Shown here: positions 24,987 through 47,275 of the stretch, piece by piece
Numbering within the stretch: position 1 is the first letter of the stretch
How the letters are laid out: every line of letters begins with the position of its first letter
Source of the DNA: Alcanivorax sp. DSM 26293
Lineage (GTDB): Bacteria; Pseudomonadota; Gammaproteobacteria; Pseudomonadales; Alcanivoracaceae
Reading direction: 5' to 3'
Assembly: GCF_900107995.1 (NCBI RefSeq)
Contig: NZ_FNUM01000004.1
Span: 186,001-250,000, forward strand
Length of the DNA: 64,000 nt
Notes under the pieces: model-generated
Databases searched by the model: none
Seen by the model: only the letters and a program-made list of their open reading frames with translations
Told to the model about the DNA's origin: nothing
Program-made: the position numbers and the translations under genes

Positions 24987-25008
24987 AATTTGGTTGGTCA
25001 TACAAATA
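24987..25008 (+). promoter_or_regulatory. Shared operator, copy 1 (divergent tetR / PF10118-SDR-hydrolase-BVMO operon)
   Basis: AATTTGGTTGGTCATACAAA plus TA is the weakest of four copies of a palindrome with consensus ATTTGGTTGTTTAGCCAAAT. It matches the copy at 34398 at 17 of 22 positions. It lies 36 bases before the ATG at 25045 and 123 bases from the tetR start. Confidence 0.65.
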
Positions 25009-25044
25009 AAGTCCAATGAATGCACTTTACTTGGGAGCGATCCA

Positions 25045-25989
25045 ATGGCTCTGGCAAACCGCAAGATTGGTTACGACGAGGTTGTAACCCGTGACATTCA
25101 CTTTCCCATGAACATCGAAAACGTGGCTCGCCACTGGTTTCGCAACGACCCGTGGTCCACTCACTGGATGAATGCCATTCTCGCCGCCGTCCCCGACGGT
25201 GAACGCTGGGTGATGAATTCTGCAAGACGGCAGCTTGGCAAGCTTGACGATCCAGAAGTGCTGAACGCAGCTAAAGAATTCATTCGCCAGGAGCGCATTC
25301 ATGCTCGTGAGCACGATGAAATGAACGCCATCGGCGTGCAACACGGGGTTCCCATCGACAAGGTTGAAGGCGTGTTCAAGCTGATCCGTAAGCAACTCCA
25401 ACACCGCCTCAGTGACGATATGCAGAGCTCCATCGCAGCGGCGTTTGAACATTTCACGGCCATTATTTCCTCGGTACTGCTTGAGCACCCGGAGCTGTTT
25501 GACGAAACCCACCCGGATTTGCGTGCCATGCTCTACTGGCACTTTGTCGAAGAAACCGAGCACAAGAGCGTCAGTTATGACGTCTTCGTCGATGCCAGTG
25601 GTGGTGGCTACCGCAGTTACCGACTGCGTATCAGTGGCATGCTACTGGCCATTGCCCTGGGCTTCCCCATTATGATCGGCAACCAGACCTATCTGCTCTA
25701 CAAGGATCGTCAAATTCTGAATTTGTGGTCCGCCGCCAAAATGACCAAAGTCCTGTTCTGGCGTCCCGGCATTCTTTCCAAGGTACTCGCTGGCGTGCCC
25801 CCCTATTTCTCCCCCACTTTCCACCCGTGGGATGACGATAACCGTGATGTAATCCGGATCTGGAAACGCGCCTACGAAAGAACTGGCGACCCTCATAAGG
25901 CCTATCAAGCGCTCAGAGACCACCGAGCCAACAATGTACACGGTACATTCGAAACGCCACAACCTGAACCCGCATGGGGGCAGGCATGA
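25045..25989 (+). CDS. PF10118 'metal-dependent hydrolase' family protein, copy 1
   Basis: The 314-aa product belongs to the uncharacterised PF10118 family. It shows a regular set of metal-ligand-like residues: E53 (PDGERWVM), E83/H86 (RQERIHAREH), E135 (AAFEHFTA) and E170/H173 (VEETEHKSVSYDV). This E, ExxH, E, ExxH series, with spacings kept in the two paralogs at 37820 and 46336, is the pattern of ferritin-like diiron proteins. A hydrophobic stretch at about 197-215 may touch membrane. The ATG at 25045 follows GGGAG. It is the first gene of a four-gene operon with overlapping starts and stops. The reaction is unknown. Confidence 0.85.
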   Translation: MALANRKIGYDEVVTRDIHFPMNIENVARHWFRNDPWSTHWMNAILAAVPDGERWVMNSARRQLGKLDDPEVLNAAKEFIRQERIHAREHDEMNAIGVQHGVPIDKVEGVFKLIRKQLQHRLSDDMQSSIAAAFEHFTAIISSVLLEHPELFDETHPDLRAMLYWHFVEETEHKSVSYDVFVDASGGGYRSYRLRISGMLLAIALGFPIMIGNQTYLLYKDRQILNLWSAAKMTKVLFWRPGILSKVLAGVPPYFSPTFHPWDDDNRDVIRIWKRAYERTGDPHKAYQALRDHRANNVHGTFETPQPEPAWGQA

Positions 25990-26813
25990 AAAAGAAACCC
26001 TTGCACCCGTCAACTCAGGCGGCAGCTGTCATCACCGGGGCGGGTAGCGGCATCGGTCGTAGCTTTGCTTACGAAGTTGCCCGTCGAGGCGGTTCGGTAC
26101 TGTGTGTCGATATCAATGAAGAGCGCGCCGAACAGGTGGCGATCAGCCTGCGAGCACTCGGTACTCACGCGGTAGCCCTGGGGTGTGATGTCGGCGATGA
26201 AAAACAGATGGCATACCTGGCGGAAAATGCCGAGCCTTTGCTCGGCAGGCCGGTAACCCTGGTAATCAACAACGCCGGCGTCGGCCTCGGTGGCCCAATC
26301 GGCGAGGTGTCACTTGAAGATTGGCACTGGTGCATGAACGTCAATCTATGGGGAGTTATTCACGGCTGCCATTATTTTGCCCCTCAGCTTCGCGATCTGG
26401 GCTATGGAGGCATCATCAATGTGGCCTCTGCTGCCGCATTCGGGTCCGCCCCGGAAATGGCCGCCTACAACGTCACCAAGGCGGGGGTGCTGGCCCTGTC
26501 CGAAACGCTGTCTTCTGAACTGACCGGTACCGGCGTAAAAATCACGGCCCTGTGCCCAACCGTGGTCCCGACCAATATCGTCGAGAATGGGCGCCTGCCT
26601 GAACGTCGCCGTGACTTTGCCCGTTCAGCGATGACCCGCTATGCCCTCACCAACGCCGACCAGGTGGCCCGACAGACCCTCAGTGCCCTTGATCGAGGTG
26701 AGCTTTACATGCTGCCACAAATTGACGGCCGGCTTGCCTGGCGGTTGAAACGCCTGACGCCACGACTATACGCCCGCGCGATTGGCGAAGCTTACAGAAT
26801 GCTGGCTGATTAA
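25986..26813 (+). CDS. Short-chain dehydrogenase/reductase
   Basis: The 275-aa product is a classical SDR: VITGAGSGIGRSFA at residues about 15-28, INNAGVGLGGP near 92, and the catalytic Ser/Tyr/Lys region NVASAAAFGSAPEMAAYNVT then K. It probably oxidises an alcohol or reduces a ketone in the hydrocarbon pathway. Its ATG overlaps the PF10118 stop (ATGA). The in-frame ATG at 25974 is possible but the one at 25986 has the better spacing to the G-run at 25976-25980. Confidence 0.88.
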   Translation: MKKKPLHPSTQAAAVITGAGSGIGRSFAYEVARRGGSVLCVDINEERAEQVAISLRALGTHAVALGCDVGDEKQMAYLAENAEPLLGRPVTLVINNAGVGLGGPIGEVSLEDWHWCMNVNLWGVIHGCHYFAPQLRDLGYGGIINVASAAAFGSAPEMAAYNVTKAGVLALSETLSSELTGTGVKITALCPTVVPTNIVENGRLPERRRDFARSAMTRYALTNADQVARQTLSALDRGELYMLPQIDGRLAWRLKRLTPRLYARAIGEAYRMLAD

Positions 26814-26851
26814 ACCGCATTAGTGGAAACGAAACACGCAAGGAATTCAAT

Positions 26852-27811
26852 ATGGCCTCCATTCCTACAACAATTTTGAAGCTACTTTTTCGCGCCGGCA
26901 TGAAGCGTGATATACGCGACCCGGACAAACTGGTAAGACATCTTCGCAGGGTGATGAACGCGCCTTTGGCCCCCTCTCTGCTGCCACGCGGAGTGCGACT
27001 CAAGCGAGGCAAGGTTGCAGGAATAGCTGGCCACTGGCTAGGCACCGCAGACCCACAAATCACCATACTCTACCTGCATGGTGGCGCCTTCATCGGCGGG
27101 CGGCTTGATACCTATCACCACTTTTGTGGCCGTTTGGCTCACGCCCTGAATGCGCGGGTCTTTCTTCCGGATTACCGACTAGCCCCTGAGCACCCCTTCC
27201 CGGCAGCAACGGATGACGCCTTTAATGTGTATCGTGAACTGATCGCAGACCCTCGCCCTGTGGTCATTGCGGGAGACTCTGCGGGAGGCAACCTGACGTT
27301 AGTCACATTGCTGCGTGCCCGTGATCAGCTGCTGAAAATGCCGGCTTGCGCCCTCGCCATTTCGCCGGCATCGGATGCGCGAGGCACCCTGATGTCCAGA
27401 CAGGCGAATAGCGACAGCGATACCATGCTTTCCCATGGCATGATTGAGGTGGCAACGGATATCTATCTGGCCGGCGCGGACCCCGCTCACCCGTATGCCT
27501 CACCAATCACCGCGGATTTCACCGGCTTGCCCCCTCTACTTTTCACTGTCAGTAGCGAAGAGTGTCTGCGCGACGATACCCATGCAGCAGCACAATGCGC
27601 GCGAGATGCGGGGGTGCCCGTGCAGGTTCTGGAGCGCGATGATATGCCGCACGTGTGGCCCGTATTCACCTTTTTGCTACCAGAGGCAAAGCAGGACTTC
27701 CCTACCATCGTCCGAATTCTGGAAAAGTATCTGACCAGCAATAACGTCGGCAAAGCCCCATCCCAAACGGTCAATGCTAGCGATAGCGCCATAGTTGAGG
27801 TTGCATCATGA
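26852..27811 (+). CDS. Alpha/beta hydrolase of the hormone-sensitive lipase type (esterase)
   Basis: The 319-aa product has the oxyanion motif YLHGGAFIGG near residue 75, the nucleophile elbow IAGDSAGGNLTLV near 145 and the catalytic His in DDMPHVWPVF near 270. It fits the HSL/esterase family that cleaves acyl esters. It lies directly upstream of a Baeyer-Villiger-type monooxygenase gene and overlaps it (ATGA). The pair suggests ester formation from a ketone and then hydrolysis. Confidence 0.9.
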   Translation: MASIPTTILKLLFRAGMKRDIRDPDKLVRHLRRVMNAPLAPSLLPRGVRLKRGKVAGIAGHWLGTADPQITILYLHGGAFIGGRLDTYHHFCGRLAHALNARVFLPDYRLAPEHPFPAATDDAFNVYRELIADPRPVVIAGDSAGGNLTLVTLLRARDQLLKMPACALAISPASDARGTLMSRQANSDSDTMLSHGMIEVATDIYLAGADPAHPYASPITADFTGLPPLLFTVSSEECLRDDTHAAAQCARDAGVPVQVLERDDMPHVWPVFTFLLPEAKQDFPTIVRILEKYLTSNNVGKAPSQTVNASDSAIVEVAS

Positions 27812-29451
27812 ATATGGCTGCTGTTGCAATCCATAACCCTCGTCCCAGCGTTACTCCTGATCATGAAGTCATTATCATCGGCGCGGGAATTTCTGGAATT
27901 GGTGCGGCAATCCAGCTGCGTGCCGATGGCATCAAAGATATCTTGATCCTTGAGCGAAGCAAGGATGTGGGAGGAACCTGGCGCGACAACCGTTATCCGG
28001 GAATCGCTGTCGACATTACCTCGTTTACCTATTCATTTTCCTTCGAACAAAACGCAAATTGGTCTCGCGTTTTTGCGCCGGGAAACGAGCTTTACCAGTA
28101 TACAAGACAGGTAACAAGCAAGTATGGCATCTACCCACTGATTCGCTTTGGTGTCGAAGTCGCTAGCGCCCGTTTTGATCTCGACAGCCATGTCTGGTTG
28201 ATCGATCTTACGGATGGCAGGCGACTTAGTGCACGCCATATTGTCTCGGCCTGTGGCGGTTTGATATCACCCAAGATGCCAGATATTGAAGGGCTTGATA
28301 CGTTCCAGGGCAATGTCATTCACACTGCACGCTGGCCAGATGACCTTGATCTTAGTGACAAGCGAGTAGCGGTAATAGGCACTGGCGCCACTGCAGTGCA
28401 ACTGATTCCGAAAATTGCCCGCCAGGCTCGTCAACTTGACGTCTACCAGCGCACCCCCATCTGGGTGCTGAAGAAGCCGGATCAGACTCTGCCTGGCTGG
28501 CTCAAGGTATTGTTCCGAACCGTACCGGGCTTGCAACGCAGCCTTCGCGGCGCTACCGACACCGTCAGCGAAACCCTGATGGTGCTTTCCGCAATATATT
28601 ACCGGCAGGCCCCTTGGCTGGTTCGCATGTGTGAAAAGGCGGGCATAAACAACCTGCGCGAACAGCTGCCCAACCGCCAGGACCTGTGGCAAGCACTGAC
28701 ACCGAAATACGGCTTCGGGTGCAAAAGGCCAACGTTTTCCAACGACTATTTCCGAACCTTTGCCCGAAACAACGTTGAGCTTGTCACGACCCCGATCAAG
28801 CGTATTACGTCCCGCGGCATCACCACCCAGGACGGCCGCTCACGGCGTATCGATACCTTGATCCTCGCCACCGGTTACAAAACCTTCGAGAAAGGAAATA
28901 TTCCCTCGTTCGACGTCATCGGCAGCAACAACATCAATTTGGGCGATTTCTGGCATGACTACCGTTACCAGGCCTATGAAGGGTTGACCATTCCGGGCTA
29001 CCCGAACTTTTACATCATGCTCGGTCCCTATGCCCTTATCGGCACCTCTTACTTCAAGATGGTCGAAGGGAATGCCATCCACCTCTCTCGCTGTATTCGC
29101 GAAGCCAACCGACGTGGAGCCAGCCAAGTGGAAATACGTCAGTCCGTCCATGACGCGTATTTCCGCAATATCCAGAAACGCCAGCAAAACACCGTGTTCC
29201 TTAACCACAACTGCGCGCTGTCGAACAGTTATTACTTCGACCATCATGGTGACGCGCCAATGCTGCGGCCCTCTACCTCTCTGGAAATGCTGTGGCGAGC
29301 CAAGCATTTACCGATGGATCACTACCGGTTCAGTGTACTGGCCGGGCACACTCCCAGCAGACACGACGGCGGGAGACAAGCCTGTGAGCCACATCCCCAG
29401 CTGCCAGAGAAGGGCATTCCGGCAAAACAAACAGATAACAATTCTCAGTGA
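27808..29451 (+). CDS. Flavin-binding monooxygenase, Baeyer-Villiger type
   Basis: The 547-aa product has two dinucleotide-binding motifs (IIIGAGISGIGAA near residue 25 and VAVIGTGATAVQLIP near 190) and between them the Baeyer-Villiger fingerprint FxGxxxHxxxWP as FQGNVIHTARWPD. The LILATGYKTFEKG segment is also family-typical. Such enzymes insert oxygen into ketones to make esters or lactones using NADPH and FAD. It is the last gene of the operon begun at 25045. It is related to, but distinct from, the AlmA-like protein at 35390. Confidence 0.9.
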   Translation: MNMAAVAIHNPRPSVTPDHEVIIIGAGISGIGAAIQLRADGIKDILILERSKDVGGTWRDNRYPGIAVDITSFTYSFSFEQNANWSRVFAPGNELYQYTRQVTSKYGIYPLIRFGVEVASARFDLDSHVWLIDLTDGRRLSARHIVSACGGLISPKMPDIEGLDTFQGNVIHTARWPDDLDLSDKRVAVIGTGATAVQLIPKIARQARQLDVYQRTPIWVLKKPDQTLPGWLKVLFRTVPGLQRSLRGATDTVSETLMVLSAIYYRQAPWLVRMCEKAGINNLREQLPNRQDLWQALTPKYGFGCKRPTFSNDYFRTFARNNVELVTTPIKRITSRGITTQDGRSRRIDTLILATGYKTFEKGNIPSFDVIGSNNINLGDFWHDYRYQAYEGLTIPGYPNFYIMLGPYALIGTSYFKMVEGNAIHLSRCIREANRRGASQVEIRQSVHDAYFRNIQKRQQNTVFLNHNCALSNSYYFDHHGDAPMLRPSTSLEMLWRAKHLPMDHYRFSVLAGHTPSRHDGGRQACEPHPQLPEKGIPAKQTDNNSQ

Positions 29452-29785
29452 CTGTGCCAGAGAAAGTGTGGAGCCTGCTTGTACATGTCACGCCAGCAGA
29501 GCTCTCCAGATCCAGTTGACCGTGCGCTTTAGCGCTGCCCAGGAGGCGTTACACCACTCGATAACCCATGCCTGGTCAGCAACAGAACACGGCATCTCGT
29601 CATAGACGACGACTGGGCGTCACGCATTAATGTGTGACATTACCGGAGCGCCAGAGCACAACGTCATTACAGTCATGGACACAGACAGCTAAGCCTGAGA
29701 CCAATATTGGTTGTTTAACCAAACAAACAGAAAATCAGAACAACTCACCATCTATAACCAGAACAGCCCCCTTTAGGAGCCTGAA
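29452..29785. promoter_or_regulatory. Promoter region of the porin-lipoprotein operon
   Basis: This gap holds no gene. It carries the near-perfect palindrome TCACGCATTAATGTGTGA at 29620-29637, whose binding protein is unknown, and downstream of it the shared operator at 29704-29725. The region probably contains the promoter for 29786. Confidence 0.6.
29704..29725 (+). promoter_or_regulatory. Shared operator, copy 2 (FadL-like/lipoprotein operon)
   Basis: The core TTGGTTGTTTAACCAA at 29707-29722 is a perfect inverted repeat (6-bp arms, 4-bp centre) and is close to the consensus seen before three other operons. It lies 60 bases before the FadL-like start codon. Confidence 0.8.
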
Positions 29786-31147
29786 ATGTCTGCAAAAAAA
29801 ACAAAACGGTTACCTCTCCTTTTCTTCACGTGCACTACAGCATTGCTCTCACCCGGCTTGGCCATTGGCGGTGCTGGCGACGGAGCGAGCACTTATGGGC
29901 TAGGCCCAATGAATGCCGGCACTGCCTTGGCATTCAGTCCTTTTGCATCCAACAGCTGGTCGGTGTACTACAACCCGGCCGCCATGGCCCGCTCCCCGGA
30001 GGGCGAACTGGGAGTCATTGTGCAGTATGGCGACCAGGAATTACGTGCCAAATCACTGGGAGGAACAGACCCTTTGGAGCGAGAGAATGATATCCTCTCT
30101 GACACCAGTTCCGAACTATTATTAATCGGCTTCAAAAGCCGCGTCGCCGGCATTTCCAGCATCGACAAGCCCATTTACTTTGGCCTGAACGTGGGTGTAG
30201 ACCAATACACATCCAACCTATTGCCCTATCAGGCCAATACCAGCCAGAAAGGGCAGTTTCTACGCTATGAATCTCAGCCACTTTATCTCGCCTTTGGTGG
30301 CGCTATCAGCAACGTCCTGAGGGGCGTTGACGTCGGCGCATCAGCACGTCTTACCCTCCAGGCCAAAGCCAACCTGGAAGCAGTTTCAGACCTTGGCGGC
30401 AACACAGACTCTGAAAAACTTTCCCTGGAAGCCTCTCCATCCCTATCACCGGCACTAGGTATCAATATCCGCTCTGGAGAAATGTTTTGCGGTACAAGCG
30501 AGTGCATGCCTTTTGGAATGGATAAGATGGAGCTGGCTCTTTTCTGGCGGGGGGAAAGTAGCTATGAGGTATCCGTGGATGCCAATGTGGTTGTGCCGGG
30601 AGTTATCCCTGAACCAGGCCTGAGCCTAGCGCTTAGTACAATTGATACCTATCAACCTGAAGTTCTCGGCGCAGCCATTTTGCTTCCCGTTGGCAAATTC
30701 GAATTGACGGCAGGCATTGAGCAGCACAATTGGTCTGCGCTTGAAAGCGAGTTTGCCGACGATACTATTCGCGATCAGGCTAATCTAGCGTTTGACGACA
30801 TCACCATTCCCCGAATTGGCGTTAGCTATCAGTGGTCGGAGTCCATGAAACTCTTTGCCGGCGCAGCCCTGGAGGACTCACCTTTAAAATCCAGCCGATC
30901 CCAGGACGTTAACTATCTTGACACCGATAAAAAGGTTTTCGGTCTGGGTGCCAGCTACCGTCTGTCCAGCGCGCCAATAATAGATATGCCATTAGAACTC
31001 TCCTTCGCTTACCAGTATCAAATGCTGGATGAAGCTGATTTCGAATTGACCTCCATCAACTCTTCCACCGATCCAGCCCCTTATGAAACGGTAAGGGCTG
31101 ATGGTGAAATAAACGTATTTTCTTCCTCCCTGTCGCTAAAGTTTTAA
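29786..31147 (+). CDS. FadL/TodX-like outer-membrane transport protein
   Basis: The 453-aa product has a signal peptide (about 27 residues, MSAKKTKRLPLLFF start), then a FadL-like plug region (GLGPMNAGTALAF, NSWSVYYNPAAMARSPEGE), many alternating-hydrophobic strands and a C-terminal Phe (SSLSLKF) as in outer-membrane beta-barrels. FadL-type channels import long-chain fatty acids or hydrocarbons. The gene follows a shared operator and is followed after 34 bases by a large lipoprotein gene. Uptake of the regulon's hydrophobic substrate is the likely role. Confidence 0.85.
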   Translation: MSAKKTKRLPLLFFTCTTALLSPGLAIGGAGDGASTYGLGPMNAGTALAFSPFASNSWSVYYNPAAMARSPEGELGVIVQYGDQELRAKSLGGTDPLERENDILSDTSSELLLIGFKSRVAGISSIDKPIYFGLNVGVDQYTSNLLPYQANTSQKGQFLRYESQPLYLAFGGAISNVLRGVDVGASARLTLQAKANLEAVSDLGGNTDSEKLSLEASPSLSPALGINIRSGEMFCGTSECMPFGMDKMELALFWRGESSYEVSVDANVVVPGVIPEPGLSLALSTIDTYQPEVLGAAILLPVGKFELTAGIEQHNWSALESEFADDTIRDQANLAFDDITIPRIGVSYQWSESMKLFAGAALEDSPLKSSRSQDVNYLDTDKKVFGLGASYRLSSAPIIDMPLELSFAYQYQMLDEADFELTSINSSTDPAPYETVRADGEINVFSSSLSLKF

Positions 31148-31181
31148 CAACAGGCATGCGATTAATACCAGGAGAAGAGCA

Positions 31182-34100
31182 ATGAATAATAACCCCATCA
31201 CAATCCACCAGTTTCTGATTAGTCTGGCGGTCGCCATAGCAGCCCTTCTGACCGGGTGCGGTGGCGATCAGGGCGATGTAAGCAATCCCTGGAGCACACC
31301 AGAGACATTAATTTTTTCTTACCCTTATCCTGGCCAGACCGAGGTTCCAGCTACCGCGCCAGTAATCCTGCGATTTTCCTCTGCACTTGAGCAAGAGGTT
31401 ATTGATGACATTGACTCACGCCTACAGCTGGTCAGTGATACTGATGGGAATACCGTCATGGTTGACTATCAGGTGGTAGACAATGGCAGAGGCCTGGCCC
31501 TGTATCCTCAATCGCGGCTGGCTCCGGCGGAAGCGTACCATCTGGTTGTCAACGATGATGGCCTTGGAGCCATTGATGATAACTCCGTGGCCCGCGTTCG
31601 GTTTCGGACTGCAGGCAGTCAAGCCGGCGCATCGCAAACCATGGGAAGCGGCTCTTTCACCCTGCTTTCAGCCACGCCTCTAGACCAACCGTCATTGCTA
31701 GAGTCGATTGATGATGCCAGCCATCCCAACGACATGAGCACCTTCAGGATGTCGTTTAATCAGACGGTTGATCCGGCCAGTACAGCATATGGCGAAACCG
31801 GATCGGTTCAACTTCGTGACAACCTCGGTAAGTTGGTTCCCGCATCGCTATTTTTGCAGGGCCGCTACCTGACACTGGATCCTGACCAGGATCTGAAACC
31901 TGTGGAACACACATTAACGATTGCTGGGCTGCGGGCCCAGACTACCGGTGAACAGTTGCCGGAGTACAATCGGACTTTTGTTCCGGAAACCACACTTCCC
32001 CGTGCTACATCCGTTCTAAAAGTTGGTAGCCTTGGAGCTGAGCAACCTGAACTAGTGTCAACTTTAACCGGCAACCCGATCAATCAGGTGCCAGTACAAT
32101 CCTTTGTGCTGGGAGATGAATCATTTACCGGGTTGAGCGGGGATCTAGCTGCAGATCTGGCTTTTGCTCCCAACTTTCCTAATGCCGTTCCACTGCGAGT
32201 ACCCGCTGGTTCCGTACTCCGAGGCACCCCCGTGGACGTCAATATACTGGGCGAAATACCGTCCGGGCTGGAAACCGGTGAAGTCACCATCACGATACTC
32301 AGCGACGCTAATGGGTATCTGATCCCGAATCCATTCAGTGATTCCCCATCGTTCCCCCGCTATGCCCTGCTCAATATGGATGCAGCAATGACTGCCGCAG
32401 GTCAAGAGCCCAATGCGGCTCTCAGCCAGAATCTGCTAAATGTGCAGGTGGCGGGTTTAGCCGTTGTGAAAGATGGTGTGCTGGTACTGGATGCGGTCAG
32501 TGTTGTTGAACCTGAAGTACTGGGCTTGGAGAAGGCATCTGGCCTACTCTCATTTCGCATGGAGGCCTATCAAAACCAGCGCCAAGCGCCTACCCCAAGC
32601 CAAGACACTCGGCCTTTGCAGCTGCAGTCTTGGGCTCCGGGGGAAAAGTTCCAACCCAATGCAAGACCTGGTGACCCCGTTATCCTGAACTTCAACAAAC
32701 CATTGAACCCAGCTTCGGTTTTCCTTGACGGTGCTGTACAGGTTTCTGTTGATGATGTAGTAAAGACGTACCCAATGCGACACGATGGCGCCACCATCAT
32801 CATCGGGGGAGATATCCTTCAACATGGAAAAGACATCCAGATCAGCCTGTCCAGTATGCTTAGAGATACGCAGGGCAACCAACTTAACCAGGACCAAACC
32901 CTTGACATTCGTCTACCGGACTTCGTTCTTCCCAATGGCAACACCAATGAATTACGCGCGCCTATTGTCGCCGCCGTTTTCCCCGGTTACCCATGTGCGT
33001 TAACCGGTGCCATCCTTACGGGTAATCGCGATAACTGGCGGAATGGTCGATGCGTCGGCGGGCAAAATAGCGATCCGCTTTATCCAATACCAAACCTCTT
33101 TAAGGATTTCAGCATCAGGGTTATCTTTAGCCGCAGTATCGACACCGAAACGGTTAATGAGCAAACATTTGTTGTTGAACACTTCGATGCTGACAATAAC
33201 GCGTGGAATCCCATCAACGGTCGTTTCAAAGTACTTGAACAACGGATCGAATTTTTCCCAGACACCGCATGGCAGGTTGATGAGCTTTACCGCTATACCC
33301 TGCACTCTGAGAAGGCGTCGCCAATTTGTGGCACCAATGCCATATGCTCTATTGATGGAGCCCCACTACAAACACGTCAAATTTCTCAGTCTAGCTCTAC
33401 AGCGCCAAAACTTAGAGAAGGGGGGCCCGACCTAATCAACCATTTCGTAGTCACCGGCGAGGATGACCGCATCACACGTGTATCCTTGCGTTCACTCCCT
33501 GTCGCAGATGTTAACGCTACTCTTAGCATAGATGACAACGAGCAAGGCGCTGTGCCCGACGGTAACGGCGGAGCAGTTGCCGACGCCAACTACCTGCAGC
33601 TTAGGCTAAAAAGCAGGTCAGGTGTAATAACCAATGCCAACATTGGCTGCAGCATAGGCGACGATTGCCCGGAAAAGAAGTTTGCCTTTGTCGGGTCAGG
33701 TGCATTACAAGCGGGTGTAAGCCATTATGACTCGGATGTCCGCGTCAATCGCCGTCTAATCGATAGCGATCCCATGACGTCAAATGAAGTCACCGGCGCC
33801 GTCATTGCCAAAGTCTTCCCTACCGTTCTCCCAACGACCAGTGTATTTCTGGAAGCTCGTGCGTTGGGGTTAATCACGATACCACTAGATACCGGCCCCC
33901 TGGTGCTTCGGCTTGCATACGAAAATAATCAACCGATTACGGGCTATATTACCGAAACCCCAGATGGCCCCTGGTTTAGTACGACGTTTGACCTCATGGT
34001 GGATGCGCCAGAGTTAGAGCCACGGCTAATTATTGAGCTCGGCCATGACATACGCAGTAAGGTTATCACCGGAGTCACCTTGGAAGGCCCCCTGCGCTTT

Positions 34101-34397: not shown

Positions 34398-34419
34398 TAT
34401 TTGGTTGTTTAGCCAAATA
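34398..34419 (+). promoter_or_regulatory. Shared operator, copy 3 (hydrolase-almA operon)
   Basis: TATTTGG at 34398-34404 and CCAAATA at 34413-34419 are perfect inverted arms around TTGTTTAG. This is the most symmetric copy. It ends only 11 bases before the first candidate ATG, so a bound protein would cover the promoter or transcription start. Confidence 0.82.
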
Positions 34420-34430
34420 AATATCTATTG

Positions 34431-36901: not shown

Positions 36902-36911
36902 AGGCGCAACG

Positions 36912-37778: not shown

Positions 37779-37819
37779 CATTTTTCTCTTTAACTATCAC
37801 ATTATTGATTGGAGGCGAT

Positions 37820-38704
37820 ATGCGCTCGTCTAATACGGTAAAAAGCATTAAGAAACTCAGCGGCGCACTGGTGGGCATTCCACCGCGTCATATCAATTTT
37901 CAATTTCCGGATTCCATTCCAAAGTATTTTTATGCTGGAAATGCCACAGCAACGACTTTCTTTGCCATGCTCTCCGGTTTTTTCCCACCTGGTGAACGCT
38001 ATTTCATGGAGTCCGTTAGACACTTTCGTGGTCAGGTTAAGGACGAATCTCTACGGGCGGCCATATCGGGCTTCATGGGGCAGGAGGCCATTCACGGACG
38101 AGAGCACGACAGGCTGAACCAGATTCTCGCCGAGTACGGCTATGACATGCAGTCGCCAGATCGGTTTGTCAAAATTGGCTTGGCCATACTAGAGAAGTTG
38201 CCGCCGAGCACTCGGCTAGCCGCCACCACGTTTATGGAGCACTTTACTGCGCTTCTCGCCGAGCAGCTGCTTGAAGACGAGAATTTTGTACGCCAGGCAG
38301 ACCCTGAAATGCTCAAAATATGGCAGTGGCATGCGCTCGAAGAGCTGGAACACAAATCTGTTGCCTACGACGTATATGAGCTTATTGGTAACAGCCGTAC
38401 AGAGCGCGTGGCTGCAGCCCTCGCCTCGATGGTCGTCTTGCTGCCGATGCTGGGCATCACCTGGAGCTGGATGCTTGTCAAAGACGGCCAGCTCGGCAAC
38501 ATCAGCGATAATGTTAAAGGTCTGAATATTTTGCTAGGTCGTAACGGGTTTGTATCGCAAATCCTTTCGCGCCTTCCTGAGTTCATTCAGCCGGATTTCC
38601 ACCCTGATCAACATGACACCAAAGGGCTGGAAAAACTGTGGCGTGAGAAGTTGTTCGCTGAAGGTGGCCAACTGCATGAGCTGTATAGCAATCCGGCGGC
38701 ATAA
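37820..38704 (+). CDS. PF10118 family protein, copy 2
   Basis: The 294-aa product keeps the same ligand-like series as the copy at 25045: E59 (PPGERYFM), E89/H92 (GQEAIHGREH), E140 (FMEHFTA) and E175/H178 (LEELEHKSVAYDV). A hydrophobic segment lies at about 200-216. The ATG at 37820 follows GGAGG; the TTG at 37805 is not needed. It is the last gene of the almA operon. See copy 1 for the proposed diiron interpretation. Confidence 0.85.
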   Translation: MRSSNTVKSIKKLSGALVGIPPRHINFQFPDSIPKYFYAGNATATTFFAMLSGFFPPGERYFMESVRHFRGQVKDESLRAAISGFMGQEAIHGREHDRLNQILAEYGYDMQSPDRFVKIGLAILEKLPPSTRLAATTFMEHFTALLAEQLLEDENFVRQADPEMLKIWQWHALEELEHKSVAYDVYELIGNSRTERVAAALASMVVLLPMLGITWSWMLVKDGQLGNISDNVKGLNILLGRNGFVSQILSRLPEFIQPDFHPDQHDTKGLEKLWREKLFAEGGQLHELYSNPAA

Positions 38705-38782
38705 TAATGCTCAAGGGGGTTTAGGGAACCTCTGAATAGTTGACGACTCTGTCACCACCGTTTGCTAAAAGACACACAAAAA

Positions 38783-38816: not shown

Positions 38817-38850
38817 ACACCTTTTATCATAGCTTTTCTCTAGCCGATCT

Positions 38851-40452: not shown

Positions 40453-41554
40453 TTTGCTTCTCCCCCGCCTGAATAAACCGTGACATGTGGTGCTCTCGGT
40501 CGCCATGACTCAATGATGCATGTGTCACCAGACGGAAGTAATGGCCAATGTTCAGCTCTTCCGTAACACCAACGCCACCATGGATCTGGATACCTTGCTG
40601 AGTGATACCAACGGCCCGGTTTGCGTAGTAAGCCTTTGCCGCCGCTGTCGCGCGCCCGCGCTCACCGACGTTTGCGCTCTCTCCTTTTACTGACACCATC
40701 AAGAGCATGGATTCCAGCTGCTGGAGATCAATAAACGCATCAACAAGGTAGTGCTGGATTACCTGAAAACTGCCAATCGTTCTACCAAACTGTTTACGCG
40801 TTCGAGCGTATTCCAGAGTGGCCTGATACACCTCTCGGCAGGCGCCGTACATACGTGCGCAGTCCAATGCGCACAGATAATCGAACCAGGCAGAAACCGC
40901 TTGCTTTGCCGCATCACCACGACACAAAACCATTTCGTCTGTGATGAGCACATCATCAAGCGTCAAACTGGCAGCACGGCTTCCATCGAGCAGTCGATAT
41001 CTTTCAACGTCACAGGCGTCGAAAGGTAGCGCGACAATGACCAACTCATCACCAGACATAGCGGAGACGAGCACGGCGTCTGCAACGCCACCATCAGACA
41101 CAACGTGCTTCTGCCCGGAAAGTCGTTCTCCGTTTAGCCTCAAGGAAGGGTTCAGCACGTGATAACCGGCATGCCGGTCATAAAGACCGCAAGCCACACG
41201 TGCCTCACCAGCAATAATGCGATCAAGCAACGCCAAGGATGTTGGCGTATTGGCGAACTCCAATAACTTGCCGGGGGAAACAATTAAATCGACAAAAGGG
41301 TCAAGACAAAGCGCGGCTCCTAACTCCTGAACAATGGCGCACACGTCAAGCAATGAGCCGCCATACCCTCCAACAGATTCAGCAAACGGAAGGCCAAACC
41401 AACCCAAATCATTCATGGCCTGCCAGCGATTCGCTTCAAGGTGATTACTCTCATTCAACTGTGCAATGTAGGTGTCAAATGAATAGTTGTCTTTAAGATA
41501 ACGGCGCGCGGTATCCGCAATCATGGTGGTATTTTCGGGTAACTTGAAATCCAT
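40439..41554 (-). CDS. Acyl-CoA dehydrogenase subunit lacking the usual catalytic segment
   Basis: The 371-aa product has the acyl-CoA dehydrogenase fold (YARTRKQFGRTIGSFQVIQH near residue 245, IQIHGGVGVTEELNIGHYFR near 320). In place of the usual IYGGTNEI catalytic-region segment it reads THASLSHGDREHHM. The FAD/substrate loop near 125 is also atypical. Together with the adjacent 386-aa homolog this suggests a heteromeric enzyme in which one subunit is catalytic, as known for several steroid side-chain acyl-CoA dehydrogenases. The gap to the upstream gene is 8 bases. Confidence 0.85.
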   Translation of the reverse strand: MDFKLPENTTMIADTARRYLKDNYSFDTYIAQLNESNHLEANRWQAMNDLGWFGLPFAESVGGYGGSLLDVCAIVQELGAALCLDPFVDLIVSPGKLLEFANTPTSLALLDRIIAGEARVACGLYDRHAGYHVLNPSLRLNGERLSGQKHVVSDGGVADAVLVSAMSGDELVIVALPFDACDVERYRLLDGSRAASLTLDDVLITDEMVLCRGDAAKQAVSAWFDYLCALDCARMYGACREVYQATLEYARTRKQFGRTIGSFQVIQHYLVDAFIDLQQLESMLLMVSVKGESANVGERGRATAAAKAYYANRAVGITQQGIQIHGGVGVTEELNIGHYFRLVTHASLSHGDREHHMSRFIQAGEKQNEVV

Positions 41555-41562
41555 TTTTCACC

Positions 41563-42723
41563 TCACAATCCGAGCAACATCTTCGCCAACACGTTTTTCT
41601 GGATCTCGTTAGATCCACCATAGATGGTGCACGCACGCAGGAAGTTATAGCGGCGACTGGCCTGATTAAAAATTTGCTCCCCAATGGGCTCCTCGTTATC
41701 CCATGGCAAAGACATCAAACCTCCGATTTCCACCATCGCTTGGGAAACCCTTTGCTGTAGTTCCGTGCCTTTGATTTTCAGTCCTGACGATTCTGGGCCG
41801 AACGGCTTGCCTTCATCTGTGGCAGCAACGGTGCGAAAGTTGGTGTATTCCAGTGCCATAAGATCGACTTCCAAGCCAGCCAACCGACGCACCGCCAACT
41901 GCTTATCTGTTTCCGTTGGTAGCGCATCGATAGCACTTTTAAGGCGATTGATTTCGTAGTGAATATCCGCCACACCGGCAATGGTGGTGCGTTCGTGGGT
42001 AAGAAGAAACTTGGCAATGGTCCACCCCATTCCTTCTTGACCCACCAAATTTTCCACAGGCACTTTCACGTCGGTAAAATAGACTTCGTTAAGGTGATGA
42101 TGCCCATCAATTGAATAAATCGGCCGTACTTCAAGCCCGGGGGTTTTCATATCGATCAGCAGGAATGAAATACCCTGCTGCTGTTTCACGGTGCTATCCG
42201 TTCGCACCAAGCAAAACATCATGTCTGCCCAATGGGCCTGTGTCGTCCAGATTTTTTGACCATTAACCAAATAATGGTCGCCATTACGCGTGGCTCGCGT
42301 TTTTAACGAGGCCAGATCTGAGCCCGCATTGGGCTCAGAATAACCTTGGCACCATAGCGTTTCGCCACGCTGAATGCCGGGCAACCACCGTTCCTTCTGT
42401 GCTTCAGAACCAAAGGTATATAACACCGGCCCAACCATGGCCACACCAAAAGGACTTGTTGGCGGAGCCCCTGCCGAGGCGCGTTCCTGATCGAAAATAT
42501 ACCGCTGGGTTGCGCTCCACCCTGGGCCACCAAATTGTTCTGGCCAAGTAGACGTGAGCCAACCTTGACTGCCCAGCAAACGCTCCCATCGTTGCTGCAT
42601 ATTCTTGTCTGGCATCGCTCCTCGGGCAGTACAGCGCCGAATATCATCAGGCACATTTTCCTTCATCCACTGCCGGATACTCTTACGAAATTCTTTTTCG
42701 TCATTACTGAAATCCAGATTCAT
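41563..42723 (-). CDS. Acyl-CoA dehydrogenase (catalytic-type subunit)
   Basis: The 386-aa product has WCQGYSEPNAGSDLASLKTR near residue 120, GQKIWTTQAHWADMMFCLVR and the C-terminal CTIYGGSNEIQKNVLAKM, all typical of the active family. The start MNLDFSNDEKEF at 42723 follows GGAGG; the ATG at 42735 is less likely. It sits next to the atypical 371-aa homolog, so the two probably form a heterotetramer that oxidises a bulky or branched acyl-CoA. Confidence 0.9.
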   Translation of the reverse strand: MNLDFSNDEKEFRKSIRQWMKENVPDDIRRCTARGAMPDKNMQQRWERLLGSQGWLTSTWPEQFGGPGWSATQRYIFDQERASAGAPPTSPFGVAMVGPVLYTFGSEAQKERWLPGIQRGETLWCQGYSEPNAGSDLASLKTRATRNGDHYLVNGQKIWTTQAHWADMMFCLVRTDSTVKQQQGISFLLIDMKTPGLEVRPIYSIDGHHHLNEVYFTDVKVPVENLVGQEGMGWTIAKFLLTHERTTIAGVADIHYEINRLKSAIDALPTETDKQLAVRRLAGLEVDLMALEYTNFRTVAATDEGKPFGPESSGLKIKGTELQQRVSQAMVEIGGLMSLPWDNEEPIGEQIFNQASRRYNFLRACTIYGGSNEIQKNVLAKMLLGL

Positions 42724-42770
42724 GGAAGCCTCCAAGCCAATAAATTTCGCAATACAAGGTCATCAATTAC

Positions 42771-44321
42771 TCAATTAACCTGTTTACCGTTGCTCTCCCA
42801 AAAGGGGGCTCGCAGTTCGTTTTTCAGCACCTTACCTGCCCCACTCACCGGCAACGACTCTGCCTTAAAATCAACGCTACGAGGCACTTTGTAACCTGCA
42901 ATTCTTTCACGGCAATGTTCGATAATCTCTGCCTCACTGGCGTGCTCTCCTTCACGCAGCACCACGATTGCATGCACAGCTTCACCCCAGCGTTCATCGG
43001 GAATACCAATTACCGCGCACTCCTGTACCGCAGGATGGCTATAAATGGCACCTTCAACTTCAACAGAGAAAATATTTTCTCCACCGCTGATTACCATGTC
43101 CTTGGCTCGATCAACGATGAAGACAAATCCATCCTCGTCCATGTAGCCAAGGTCGCCGGTATGTAGCCAACCATTGCGCAAGGTATCAGCGGTTGTTGAT
43201 TCCATTCCCCAGTAACCCAACATGACGTTTGGTCCCCGCGCACATATTTCGCCAACCGTACCTTGAGATACCACCTGATCATTTTCATCAAGCACCACCA
43301 CCTCCACACCCAGTGCTGCGCGACCGGCGCTACGTAATTTTTCTCCGCCGGGAATGTGATGTTCTGGCCCGAGTGAGGTAATGATTGGGGAGGCTTCGGT
43401 CTGGCCATAGCCCTGAGCAAATGACACTGTCGGCATTTGTTCCATAGCACTAATCAATACCGCCTCTGGCATTGGCGAGGCGCCATACAGCATGCGTTTT
43501 ATGCTGCTGACATCGTAATTGGCGATGCGCCCAGATGAGGCTAGAAGATTGACCATGGTCGGCACCAACAGGGTGTTCGTGACTTTCTCCTGCTCAATGA
43601 AAGCCAGCACTTCATCAACATCAAAGCGAGGAACAATGCCATGTGTCCCCGCAGCCAGTGTCACGGCAAACGTGCTGGCCATATCAGCCAAGTGGAACAT
43701 GGGCCCGGCATGCATATATATGGTGTCACTGTCATAGCCCATCTCGGCAACCACGTTTAGGGCATTGAATACCAGGTTGTCATGACTCAGCATCACGCCT
43801 TTTGACCGCCCAGTGGTACCACCGGTATAAAACAGCCCCGCCAGATCGTCACCGCCAGCATTGGCGTCACGGATTCGATCGGCGTTGGCGACAAGGGATT
43901 CATAATCAATACACCCTTGTGGACACTCACCCTCACCCATGAAGACAACATGCTTGATAGACTCAAGCTGTGGCTGTAGGGATGGCAGCAATGCTGCAAA
44001 GGTGTCATCAACGAAAAGCACTTTAGAACCTGAGTCATTCAAGGTATAGGCGATTTCAGGTGGTGCGAGCCGAATATTGACGGGATTCACTGCCGCACCG
44101 GCCCACGGCACTGCATAGAAATACTCCAGGTAGCGATCGCTGTTTAATGCCAGTATGGCAACCCTGTCACCCGCATTGACGCCCAGACTTAGCAACCCGT
44201 TAGCAAGGCATGCGATACGGTCTTCAAACTCTCGCCAGGTTTGCCGCCGACCAGCAAAAACGGTAGCCGTACCTTGGCCGTTTAATTGAACCGCACGGCG
44301 CAAAGTCTGTGAAATATACAT
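42771..44321 (-). CDS. AMP-dependent acyl-CoA synthetase
   Basis: This 516-aa enzyme should activate a fatty or related acid to its CoA ester. It has the AMP-binding P-loop YTGGTTGRSKGVMLSHDN near residue 168, GYGQTEASP near 315, the hinge WLHTGDLGYMDEDGFVFIVD with RAKDMVISGGENI, and the catalytic Lys in PVSGAGKVLKNELR near the C-terminus. It lies upstream of the two acyl-CoA dehydrogenase genes, the order expected for feeding an acid into beta-oxidation. Confidence 0.92.
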   Translation of the reverse strand: MYISQTLRRAVQLNGQGTATVFAGRRQTWREFEDRIACLANGLLSLGVNAGDRVAILALNSDRYLEYFYAVPWAGAAVNPVNIRLAPPEIAYTLNDSGSKVLFVDDTFAALLPSLQPQLESIKHVVFMGEGECPQGCIDYESLVANADRIRDANAGGDDLAGLFYTGGTTGRSKGVMLSHDNLVFNALNVVAEMGYDSDTIYMHAGPMFHLADMASTFAVTLAAGTHGIVPRFDVDEVLAFIEQEKVTNTLLVPTMVNLLASSGRIANYDVSSIKRMLYGASPMPEAVLISAMEQMPTVSFAQGYGQTEASPIITSLGPEHHIPGGEKLRSAGRAALGVEVVVLDENDQVVSQGTVGEICARGPNVMLGYWGMESTTADTLRNGWLHTGDLGYMDEDGFVFIVDRAKDMVISGGENIFSVEVEGAIYSHPAVQECAVIGIPDERWGEAVHAIVVLREGEHASEAEIIEHCRERIAGYKVPRSVDFKAESLPVSGAGKVLKNELRAPFWESNGKQVN

Positions 44322-44379
44322 AACAGAACTCCTCTATTGAGGCAGAAAAGGAAGGGGGGAGGGTTGTTTATAGATTGGA

Positions 44380-45318
44380 TTAGCTGGAAGCGAAGGCTCT
44401 CTTATAAATGAAGCGACCTCGGGAAACCTGGGCGCCATCAAGAAACACATCCACAACAACCACAATGAAGCGCTTTCCTTCACGAATAATGTTCGGCTTG
44501 GCCACCAACGTACCCGCAAAGGCCGGGCGCAAATAATCCAGAGTCATACTTGAACATACTGGCTTATTTTGTTCAGTCTGATTCGCTGTTAAGTGCGCGC
44601 CAGCAACAAGCTCCGCGAAGCTTGCGATAATACCGCCATGAAAAGTCTTGATCAGAGGGTTGCCAATGTGCTGCTCGCGAAACGGCATTTTATAGGTTGC
44701 TTCGCCATTATCGTCCGAAGCCGTCATACCAAGAAATTTTTCGTATGGTGATACATCGCCGACCACAGTAGAGAGAGCGGTTACCCTTTCTGTTTCGAAG
44801 CTGATGATTCCTTCATCATCGATTGTTTTTTTCTTGGAGGGGGCTATCTTATTGCTAGGATTCACAGATTGATCAAAGGACGGGCCTGCCGTTCCTATCG
44901 CAAAACTGCCTGATACCGACGCCAGCAAATTGCCGCCATCACGCCCAAATGCCTCTCCACGGACATAGGCAATATTTTCTTCAACTGCAAAACAGGTGAC
45001 ATTACATGCCACCCCTTCGCCAGCCTCGGGTTTAGCGATGAAATCAACGCGCAAGTCAATTGTCGCAATTGGGCGCATGTCGCCGAGGCGCACAAAAATC
45101 GCCAAACCACATGCCGTATCAAGCAAGGTAGCGATGGCTCCCCGATGAAGCTTTCCCTGTTGATCACAAACCTCTTCCACACAAGGCATGCTCATTACCG
45201 CGCCATCTTTGGTAGTGTCATCCATTGCGATACCAAAAACCCTGAACAACGGATGCCCTGAACCAAAAAAAGCCTTTGCGGCAAGCAGTTCTCTCGGGAG
45301 TGATGTCTCAGCTGTCAT
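44380..45318 (-). CDS. Tandem hotdog thioesterase
   Basis: The roughly 312-aa product has two PaaI-type hotdog domains. The first contains KLHRGAIATLLDTACGLAIF near residue 75, and the second contains KTFHGGIIASFAELVAGAHL near 245 and MTLDYLRPAFAGTL. Such proteins hydrolyse acyl-CoA thioesters or release CoA during degradation. The start is uncertain: 45318 (MTAETS) avoids overlap with the upstream gene but has a weak ribosome site; Met codons at 45354 and 45390 are in frame. It lies upstream of the acyl-CoA synthetase gene. Confidence 0.82.
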   Translation of the reverse strand: MTAETSLPRELLAAKAFFGSGHPLFRVFGIAMDDTTKDGAVMSMPCVEEVCDQQGKLHRGAIATLLDTACGLAIFVRLGDMRPIATIDLRVDFIAKPEAGEGVACNVTCFAVEENIAYVRGEAFGRDGGNLLASVSGSFAIGTAGPSFDQSVNPSNKIAPSKKKTIDDEGIISFETERVTALSTVVGDVSPYEKFLGMTASDDNGEATYKMPFREQHIGNPLIKTFHGGIIASFAELVAGAHLTANQTEQNKPVCSSMTLDYLRPAFAGTLVAKPNIIREGKRFIVVVVDVFLDGAQVSRGRFIYKRAFASS

Positions 45319-45334
45319 AGTTAGCAACTTTTTA

Positions 45335-46336
45335 TCAGAATGTTGAAGCGGCATCCGCATACCGGGTCTCTGCAACACGCACAGATTCAATGGCGTCCGT
45401 TATTGCCTCTTCAGGGAATGTTTCACTTTCAGACCCCTTTCGCAGACAATCAGCCAGAGCGGACCATGCCGCAGCACTCGCGCGCATCAACTCGACCAAG
45501 CCTGCCTCATGTATTTCAGGAACAATTTCACTCGCTTCATCGAGAAATTCTGAATACATCGCTCTAAAACCGCTGCCCCCCGTTCCACGCTTCTCGATCA
45601 CTTGATAGGCGAAACGGAGCAACCATTGCCATTTATCCACTGCCTTCCAGCGAGGAAGTTCCTGGATCCAAGTTGTTAGCGCTTGAATACCGTGATTCCT
45701 GCTTCCTTGCAGTAGATTATCTGCATTCTTCACAATCGCACTGCGCACGTTCTCGGGAGACACCTGAACCGAAACACTTTCGGGTGCGAACAATGAACCA
45801 TGATGGATAAAGGGTGGCGACAAGGAGAATCTGGCTTCAACCAACTTGTCACGAGGCACCTCTAAAAGCCCTGGGCGCTCGGTATCGCTAACGAGCATCG
45901 TCTCGCCCTTCTCGGCTCGCTGCCAGGCGACGATGGCGTGACCGGGGAAATGTGTACTGCTCTTGAAATAAGGAAGGTAAAAAATATCAGTTAAGAGAAG
46001 CGCAGGCCGCCCCGCATCAAGATGGGCATCCAGCGCATCGGCGGCAGCACATTTATCTTGCCAAGTTTCCCAGCGAAACGGCACGCCCAGTGTAGAGAAC
46101 ACCGTTTCCTCAAATCCCATTGAACGGACATGGACAATAAACGGGGTGTCCGTGCCTGGTATTTCCACATAAGTAATACCAAGCCCGGCACCCAGCCCGA
46201 AGCAGAAAGCTTCCGTCAAATTAAGCCCATGAAACTCCAGCAGGTCTCTGATAGCTGAACTGCCACAGTGACGCCCAGGCCGATGTGTATGTGGAACATC
46301 GACGGTACTGGGGAGATCCTGCTTGTCTCCATGCAT
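45335..46336 (-). CDS. BtrH-type N-terminal domain protein with DUF4872-like C-terminus
   Basis: The 333-aa product starts with the BtrH-like pattern GRHCGSSAIRDLLEFHG and FGLGAGLGITYVE. A His in HFPGHAIVAW near residue 128 and the Asp of LVSDTERPG could complete a Cys-His-Asp set with Cys24, as in C39-like or acyl-transferring folds. BtrH moves an acyl group in butirosin synthesis, so an acyltransferase or thioesterase role is possible here. Its ATG overlaps the stop of the PF10118 gene upstream. The function in a catabolic operon is unknown. Confidence 0.8.
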   Translation of the reverse strand: MHGDKQDLPSTVDVPHTHRPGRHCGSSAIRDLLEFHGLNLTEAFCFGLGAGLGITYVEIPGTDTPFIVHVRSMGFEETVFSTLGVPFRWETWQDKCAAADALDAHLDAGRPALLLTDIFYLPYFKSSTHFPGHAIVAWQRAEKGETMLVSDTERPGLLEVPRDKLVEARFSLSPPFIHHGSLFAPESVSVQVSPENVRSAIVKNADNLLQGSRNHGIQALTTWIQELPRWKAVDKWQWLLRFAYQVIEKRGTGGSGFRAMYSEFLDEASEIVPEIHEAGLVELMRASAAAWSALADCLRKGSESETFPEEAITDAIESVRVAETRYADAASTF

Positions 46337-47205
46337 CAGGCTGCCTCACTCACTGGAGCCGGACCGTAAATGGTTTCCGATGCCCGCATCGGATCTCCAT
46401 GAGTCTCATACTCCGCCAACCACGCGGCAACCTTCTCAGGCATACCGGTATCCCAAGGGTGAAATCCAGGGCGGAACCAAGCGAGGAAATCAGGCAGCAT
46501 GCCTGTGAGAATACCTTTTCGCCCATAAAGCTTGTTCAGGCCTCGCAGAATCACACCAGGCTGGCGCGTTACGCCATCAAGCTTGAGCATATTCCAAAAT
46601 ACTGGAGCCACGACAAGGTGAACCATCAGGGTCGCAACCACCAACGCAGACGCGCGCGTCAAGTAGCCTCCACCTGCTGCGCCCTGATAAAGATCATAGG
46701 CCACGGCCTTGTGCTCTACTTCTTCGACCCCGTGCCACAGAAATAGCGCTCTCATGACGGGGTCAGCCTCGCTAAACATCTCGCTCTTCTCGCTGACCAT
46801 GGTTTCGCCCAGGGTTGCCGTAAAGTGCTCAAACGCCGCCGTCATGGCGAGCTGATACTTCTTCGGCAGGTACTTTTGTGTGGTGCGAATAAAGGTCCTT
46901 AGATTCGCAGTGACCTTATCCACATCCACGCCCTGGCTGGCCATCACATCGTTGAAACGATCATGGACAATCCCGTGCTGACCTTCCTGGCGAATAAAGT
47001 GACGAATATCCTCGCTCAGCTGATCATCTGTCACTTGATCCTTGAAGTTACGCACTGACTGGATAAAGAAGCGCTCCCCCTCCGGGAAATGCACTGAGAG
47101 GGCATCAAAGAAGCGGGTCAGCACGGGGTCACCGCCATTCCAGTGCCGTGGCACTGACGAGACATCAAAAGCGACTTTGCGCGGCTGAATTGATACAGAA
47201 CTCAT
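46336..47205 (-). CDS. PF10118 family protein, copy 3
   Basis: The 289-aa product has the conserved set E44 (PEGERFFI), E74/H77 (RQEGQHGIVH), E126 (AAFEHFTA) and E162/H165 (VEEVEHKAVAYDL), at nearly the same spacing as in the copies at 25045 and 37820. A hydrophobic segment follows at about 180-196. It is the first gene of a seven-gene minus-strand operon and lies 48 bases from a strong copy of the shared operator. See copy 1 for the diiron interpretation. Confidence 0.85.
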   Translation of the reverse strand: MSSVSIQPRKVAFDVSSVPRHWNGGDPVLTRFFDALSVHFPEGERFFIQSVRNFKDQVTDDQLSEDIRHFIRQEGQHGIVHDRFNDVMASQGVDVDKVTANLRTFIRTTQKYLPKKYQLAMTAAFEHFTATLGETMVSEKSEMFSEADPVMRALFLWHGVEEVEHKAVAYDLYQGAAGGGYLTRASALVVATLMVHLVVAPVFWNMLKLDGVTRQPGVILRGLNKLYGRKGILTGMLPDFLAWFRPGFHPWDTGMPEKVAAWLAEYETHGDPMRASETIYGPAPVSEAA

Positions 47206-47253
47206 AATTCCTCCAAATAAACAGGCTGTCTACGTAGTGACATCCCTTGATCT

Positions 47254-47275
47254 TATTTGGCTGAACAACCAAATG
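47254..47275 (-). promoter_or_regulatory. Shared operator, copy 4 (seven-gene degradation operon)
   Basis: On the minus strand it reads CATTTGGTTGTTCAGCCAAA plus TA, 20 of 22 bases identical to the copy at 34398. The inverted arms ATTTGG and CCAAAT are perfect. It lies 48 bases before the start codon at 47205. Confidence 0.82.

Follow-up and report, generated by a model that had tools for sequence, protein, structure and literature searches.

A palindromic element of 22 bp occurs four times in a stretch of 64,000 nucleotides, hereafter referred to as the window, from the genome of Alcanivorax sp. DSM 26293 (GCF_900107995.1; contig NZ_FNUM01000004.1, positions 186,001-250,000). This element is in all likelihood the operator of a TetR-family regulator of 201 amino acids encoded at 24258..24863 on the reverse strand, which would hold four hydrocarbon operons, together comprising seventeen genes, off simultaneously. 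Pattern and matrix searches both identify the operators at 24988..25009 (operator 1, between tetR and operon 1), 29705..29726 (operator 2) and 34399..34420 (operator 3) on the forward strand, and at 47253..47274 on the reverse strand (operator 4). Counted from the originally predicted positions, they lie 36, 60, 8-17 and 48 bp upstream of the first genes of operons 1 to 4, respectively, the start codon of operon 3 being uncertain, which agrees with the position close upstream of each operon that had been predicted. Local TetR regulons are in principle of a well-known kind; neither this TetR, nor the operator and its link to it, was found described in the literature searched, a limited collection that leaves papers beyond it uncovered.

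The original prediction placed the four palindromes correctly, albeit with the frame off by one base, and quoted a 20-mer core which matches exactly at 34399 and with one mismatch at 47255, while sites 1 and 2 are missed even at three mismatches and match only a degenerate consensus. A degenerate 22-mer drawn from these four sites, WWTTGGTTGKTYADMCAAAYAA, matches the 3,706,254-base genome exactly at four places, all of them the operators, while the reversed control has none in the whole genome. Allowing up to three mismatches adds a backward reading of site 2 and one stray place, C6:56232, which falls inside open reading frames, one of them read as lspA-like. A matrix of 22 columns was furthermore built from 34 distinct sites (35 places) hand-picked from other genera, with none from the genus of the window. 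With this matrix the four operators rank first to fourth in the window (29.62, 28.76, 25.34 and 23.64 bits, the lowest score being that of operator 1), while the next-best place not overlapping an operator scores 13.45. The fourth-best score stayed at or below 12.3 in each of 100 random sequences of 64 kb, although one single best score reached 22.0. A loose 18-mer at two mismatches is at the level of noise genome-wide (nine places including the four operators; control: 30), and the specificity therefore rests on the fuller motif. The occurrence of the motif elsewhere had been put forward as a check on the prediction; no exact WWTTGGTTGKTYADMCAAAYAA place exists off the locus in this genome, while the matrix was applied to the window, where none of the top scores lies before the CYP153 operon, which had indeed been reported to lack the operator. 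A chance repeat is ruled out by the pattern scans of this genome and the genus together with the matrix scan of the window, and a genome-wide regulon is ruled out for this genome by the absence of any exact site outside the locus. The regulon is thus local in its own genome.

Within the genus, four sites in the same order and at similar spacing are present in fifteen of the seventeen genomes (60 sites in all), with the same scan returning two strays (both in G009), three backward readings and five hits for the reversed control. The remaining two are G012, where a close TetR is missing, and the draft genome G010, whose TetR is cut by a contig end. Sites also recur at the orthologous operons of other genera. 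Operons 1-4 each have one in the two genomes read of g2, the two of g3 and the one of g4, while sites at operons 1 and 3 are found among the matches listed for g5 and g6 (one genome each). The loose 18-mer, which yields about as many hits as control hits across 21 genomes and was kept only for reading single places in g5 and G024, shows, among the matches listed for g5, an additional site immediately before operon 4 and another elsewhere in the cluster. The consensus over other genera, TATTTGGTTGATCAACCAAATA, is a palindrome of 20-22 bp with a variable centre; the outer half-sites are mostly kept across genera, and the centre and flanks vary. The prediction of one operator for four operons is as such borne out by the whole-genome scans and by the sites at orthologous operons of other genera. 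Two further arrangements were observed: in G030 (L050:6147) a fifth site precedes genes that by eye encode ferredoxin reductase, MerR-like and ferritin-like proteins and lead to CYP153, while contig C1 of G024 (L125) harbors a second, rearranged cluster with a 59% identical TetR and its own set of at least four sites.

The four operons are very probably regulated by the TetR encoded at 24258. Its amino acid sequence carries the features of the TetR/AcrR family (PF00440; Bitscore: 54.9; cut-off: 24) and the YsiA-like TetR_C_4 domain (PF17932; Bitscore: 84.8; cut-off: 26.4), and its AlphaFold model is all helical (pLDDT 83.7). Relatives sharing ~50-100% identity were compared at 80 loci from Alcanivorax, Marinobacter, Pseudomonas, Limnobacter, Salinisphaera and others; the neighbourhoods were read locus by locus in the 50 of these listed, and the upstream motif was counted in 79, leaving out L101, where tetR is cut by a contig end. 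When a site is required to match ≥13/16 positions and to lie no more than 400 bp upstream of tetR, 62/79 loci have one, where ~1 is expected from the background of 35 matches in 1.13 Mb of the same loci with the tetR surroundings excluded. The TetR proteins of Marinobacter, Limnobacter, Pseudomonas and Salinisphaera are ~50-57% identical to the window protein, and in the loci examined from these four genera the site is present even though the operon divergent from tetR differs and opens with thioesterases. The gene divergent from tetR resembles the first half of the operon-4 double-4HBT thioesterase in four of four loci (28-31%), and the next gene resembles the second half in three of the four (~30-33%), the loci of Marinobacter, Limnobacter and Pseudomonas being those where two adjoining thioesterase genes match the two halves. 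Two of the four loci also contain a hydrolase resembling that of operon 3, while the Salinisphaera hydrolase (L135) has no match to any window protein. By eye, such a thioesterase pair also stands behind its own site in Paraperlucidibaca (L123). The Marinobacter-type site (e.g. L145:9844-9867) is a longer palindrome, TTTTGGTTGGTTAACCAACCAAAA, which equals two overlapping operators 4 bp apart and may be bound by two dimers.

The distribution of the TetR further parallels that of the operon genes. Nine of the nineteen family genomes outside the genus contain the TetR (69-77%), the operon-3 monooxygenase (73-82%) and the operon-4 PF10118 protein (81-90%), while the other ten (including G031, whose completeness is only 64%) encode distant TetRs only, together with a monooxygenase of at most 65% and a PF10118 protein of at most 44% or none. 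Within the genus, G012 likewise has only a distant monooxygenase (≤65%) and a distant PF10118 protein (≤44%) or none. In nine genomes, the Ig-like gene of operon 2 shows 63-65% in the five with TetR and at most 41% in the four without. The candidacy of this TetR, proposed originally from its position, is thus supported by the motif upstream of tetR in other genera and by its co-occurrence with the operon genes. Site 1 lies ~90 bp from the likely tetR promoter, as judged by eye, and autoregulation is therefore not implied.

The promoter-like site of operon 4 (47250..47279, reverse strand) consists of TTGACA and TAAGAT with an 18-bp spacer (10/12 consensus bases), and operator 4 fills the 18 bases between them. 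The sites counted in relatives, all at operon 1 or 4, number 20 and include four from the genus; fourteen of the 20 have at least five of the six TTGACA bases directly before the site, with 0-1 at other offsets. Placement of the operator between the -35 and -10 elements, as seen at operon 4 here and at both operon 1 and operon 4 in relatives, fits repression. We infer that each operator copy would be occupied by a TetR dimer that blocks the polymerase, excluding it from the promoter where the operator lies in the spacer, and that the four operons would in this manner be repressed jointly. A ligand derived from the first alkane molecules, probably a long-chain acyl-CoA or a fatty acid, would then act as inducer and free all four promoters. 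An inducer of this type is suggested by the folds of KstR2, PfmR, AibR (with isovaleryl-CoA) and FadR, which are among those nearest to the TetR model in the PDB, as is PfiT. A TATAAT before site 1 had also been considered as the -10 element of operon 1, with the operator at +1, and was dropped because this TATAAT is not kept in other genera, which by eye keep TTGACA before the operator instead. The palindrome arms can pair, and at operons 2 and 3 a hairpin within the transcript is conceivable. That the palindromes act as RNA hairpins at transcript 5′ ends is nonetheless extremely unlikely, given that the palindrome of operon 4 (and of operons 1 and 4 of relatives) lies between -35 and -10, upstream of the predicted start, and that the motif is likewise found between tetR and different operons in other genera.

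The next gene beyond tetR (23155..24201, forward strand) encodes the AraC-family regulator CypR (NF053784; Bitscore: 592; cut-off: 500), a known activator of CYP153 according to the available part of the literature, which might itself bind the palindromes and activate the four operons. CypR co-occurs almost as well, being missing from ten of twelve family genomes without the full TetR (e-value: 1e-60), and in the family it is thus gained and lost together with TetR. We consider its role as the regulator of these operons highly improbable, however, since no site precedes the CYP153 operon in the window, while nine loci (L130, L135, L137-L140 and L143-L145) harbor TetR and a site and lack CypR in the stretch examined, some of these stretches being short. 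Furthermore, G027 encodes a 54% identical CypR and has no close ortholog of the operon-3 or operon-4 gene, and an inverted repeat filling the promoter spacer suits a repressor dimer.

Pfam searches bear out the predicted seventeen genes in four operons (4+2+4+7) and their families. Operon 1 (25045..29451, forward strand), which gaps of at most 38 bp suggest to be a single operon, encodes a PF10118 protein (25045-25989), a short-chain dehydrogenase/reductase (SDR; 25974-26813), an Abhydrolase_3 hydrolase (26852-27811) and a flavin monooxygenase (27808-29451). Operon 2 (29786..34262, forward strand) encodes a FadL-like porin (29786-31147) and a Big_5 Ig-like lipoprotein (31182-34262). Operon 3 (34428..38704, forward strand) encodes an alpha/beta hydrolase (34428, or 34431/34437, to 35393), an AlmA-type flavin monooxygenase (35351-36901), an SDR (36912-37778) and a PF10118 protein (37805-38704). 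Its first possible start codons lie 8-17 bp past operator 3 and no ribosome-binding site is seen by eye, so that the transcript may be leaderless. Operon 4 (38851..47205, reverse strand; gaps of at most 58 bp) encodes a PF10118 protein (47205-46336), a BtrH_N/DUF4872 protein (46336-45335), the double-4HBT thioesterase (45390-44380), an acyl-CoA synthetase (44321-42771), two acyl-CoA dehydrogenases (42735-41563 and 41554-40439) and a GMC oxidoreductase (40506-38851). Terminator-like hairpins follow operon 2 (34293-34310) and operon 4 (38816-38783; 14 pairs), such hairpins being hardly more frequent than in shuffled sequences (25 vs 19.5).

The three PF10118 proteins are annotated as 'metal-dependent hydrolases'. 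An alignment of fifteen PF10118 sequences shows invariant E60, E90xxH93, E141 and E176xxH179 residues, and the model of one of the proteins is a helical bundle (pLDDT 85.3). Its fold matches are weak (TM-score ~0.5; none with an e-value ≤0.001) and include CmlI (the best; e-value: 0.018), aldehyde-deformylating oxygenase and R2-like oxidase, while no PDB sequence match better than an e-value of 0.9 was found. These features suggest that the PF10118 proteins are di-iron oxygenases rather than hydrolases.

The gene content makes an uptake-to-CoA pathway under one switch, as originally proposed, plausible. Uptake would proceed through the FadL/AupA-like porin with the Ig-like lipoprotein, and oxidation through the AlmA-type flavin monooxygenases, the SDRs, the GMC dehydrogenase and the PF10118 proteins, followed by ester cleavage by the two hydrolases and finally by CoA activation and entry into beta-oxidation. 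The likeliest route is a subterminal one by ketone and ester to alcohol and acid, in which monooxygenase, SDR and hydrolase would together yield these compounds and the remaining genes would serve to oxidise and activate the products. AlmA of Acinetobacter baylyi is described, in the part of the source available, as a Baeyer-Villiger enzyme acting on 2-ketones (PMC11784139).

Several of these genes can be related to a characterized system. The operon-3 monooxygenase is 73% identical to the protein encoded at C1:2232288 of genome G029, which we take to be A. dieselolei B-5, and the latter protein shares 63% identity with the second monooxygenase, near 307 kb, of G015, presumably A. borkumensis SK2. 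This value equals the 63% identity reported for B5T_02052 (AlmA) and ABO_0282 (PMC6850023), which underlies the assignment of G029. The operon-3 monooxygenase would correspond to almA (B5T_02052), and the operon-2 porin to ompT (B5T_02055/ABO_0193; PMC5174103). The gene order in G029 (porin, Ig-like, hydrolase, monooxygenase) fits the locus tags 02055 to 02052. Among ABO_0184-0187 and 0189-0198, only ABO_0193 was found named in the literature searched, the others being assigned by counting from ABO_0193 and ABO_0199-0203.

The regulator AlmR was reportedly first published by Wang and Shao in 2014 and is known here through citing papers. The available parts of these describe the repression of almA by AlmR on the basis of gene inactivation, growth and quantitative PCR (PMC8784404, PMC11784139, citing the original work), and a predicted Ig-like domain in a protein encoded close upstream of almA (PMC11784139), while no regulator family is assigned (PMC8784404). 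The gene fitting this description in G029 encodes a Big_5 protein two genes upstream of the monooxygenase, and the published AlmR is probably the Ig-like lipoprotein of operon 2. In Pfam, this window protein and its B-5-like ortholog (L059:7852-10923) contain Big_5 only and no DNA-binding domain, and the window protein has no NCBIfam or PDB match. A signal-like hydrophobic stretch followed by a lipobox-like cysteine forms the N-terminus of the window protein and of four orthologs, and the gene sits behind the AupA-related porin. AlmR is thus probably an envelope lipoprotein, and the TetR is therefore the likelier direct DNA-binding repressor. That AlmR, taken as this Ig-like protein, is itself a DNA-binding regulator of these operons would accord with its reported repression of almA, but with Big_5 as its sole domain and a lipoprotein-like start this is very unlikely, and a deletion might exert its effect indirectly, by way of uptake. 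We tentatively suggest, with a likelihood a little short of even, a combined reading in which TetR is the true repressor of the almA/ompT genes, AlmR is an envelope lipoprotein acting indirectly, perhaps in the delivery of substrate or inducer, and the PF10118 proteins are undescribed di-iron oxygenases in a subterminal pathway.

Several observations weigh against the simple view of one TetR switching all four operons. No site of the required score lies upstream of tetR in 17/79 loci. Eight of these are of the Alloalcanivorax type, with tetR beyond the CYP153 genes and a site (12/16) kept at operon 1 in 8/8, in three others (L121-L123) the sites stand at a different place in the locus, while two reach a score of 12 and four (L102, L108, L141 and L164) no more than 9-10. 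The loci are related, many of them being from Marinobacter, and the counts are as such not independent. Furthermore, 292 palindromes with shuffled halves were found at a mean of 3.2 of the 79 loci, with a maximum of 47; the high values are taken, unchecked, to be shifted forms of the same repeat. The genus member G010 lacks both the sites and close orthologs of the two operon genes searched, while the target sets vary, operon 1 beside tetR in g2 consisting of the PF10118 gene only. The count of the -35 geometry covers operons 1 and 4 only and was made after the pattern had caught the eye; inspection of operons 2 and 3 does not reveal it. No promoter was predicted by the scan at operon 1 of the window, and over 28400-47400 promoter-like sites are fewer than in shuffled sequences (8 vs 17.6). 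Expression data are also mixed. With dodecane vs pyruvate, the porin gene is raised in A. dieselolei KS-293 and not in SK2, according to the part of the source available (PMC5174103), and the locus tags expected for these operons are absent from the main text of the SK2 proteome paper. A layered arrangement, in which TetR binds the operators and CypR and an AlmR/Cyo chain add control, so that the four operons are not under one simple switch, is consequently a possibility of some weight, if a doubtful one. It is favoured by the chain Cyo -> AlmR -> almA described for A. dieselolei in the available citing literature, by the different matrix scores of the four operators and by the differing response of the porin gene in SK2 and KS-293.

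Alcanivorax and Marinobacter are leading oil-spill degraders, and the switching of almA-type genes is poorly known, with only one article on almA regulation according to the available part of an Acinetobacter paper (PMC11784139). The locus yields a testable operator, a repressor gene and a list of targets, and the result questions the usual reading of AlmR. As operator and repressor recur in several bacterial families, they could furthermore serve as biosensor parts.

By sequence, the best PDB relatives of the TetR are the PfiT entries 4mxm/4mo7 (~32% identity), the homolog of PfiT being PA2885, as far as the source is available; we take PA2885 to be AtuR. The AtuR/RdmA regulators of Pseudomonas, which act in acyclic-terpene and DSF degradation, are like the system described here in that a TetR repressor is encoded beside a divergent lipid-degradation operon and has inverted-repeat operators (PMC9973270). 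Their target genes are different, however, and the RdmA sites given in the available part of that paper, AGCAAGCGCTTGG/CCAAGCGCTTGCT, differ from the motif linked to the 24258 TetR, TTTGGTTGNNCAACCAAA, so that the AtuR/RdmA operator type AGCAAGCGCTTGG is not the one found here. Bacillus FadR/YsiA, AibR, KstR2 and PfmR are TetR regulators of lipid and acyl-CoA catabolism which are among the nearest folds of the 24258 TetR, itself a match to the YsiA-like TetR_C_4, but are only ~17-31% identical to this protein, which scores 58.7 bits with the NCBIfam model for Bacillus-type FadR (cut-off: 200). The AlmR-ompT-almA system of A. dieselolei B-5 probably comprises the same genes as the operon-2 porin and the operon-3 monooxygenase, and in the parts of its almA/ompT literature covered, neither an operator sequence nor a TetR was found for these genes. 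AupA/AupB of Marinobacter resemble operon 2 in that a FadL-like porin is followed by a second gene in one operon, as the available part of the source describes (PMC5989066); the porin encoded at 29786 scores 380 bits with the AupA model NF041571 (cut-off: 840) and is as such a homolog rather than a called equivalent. Finally, AlkX of Dietzia is, by the description in the available part of PMC8784404 from which this likeness is drawn, a TetR repressor of alkane hydroxylase for which only alkW1X is listed as a target, unlike the four operons considered here, and whose repression is reduced by fatty acids.

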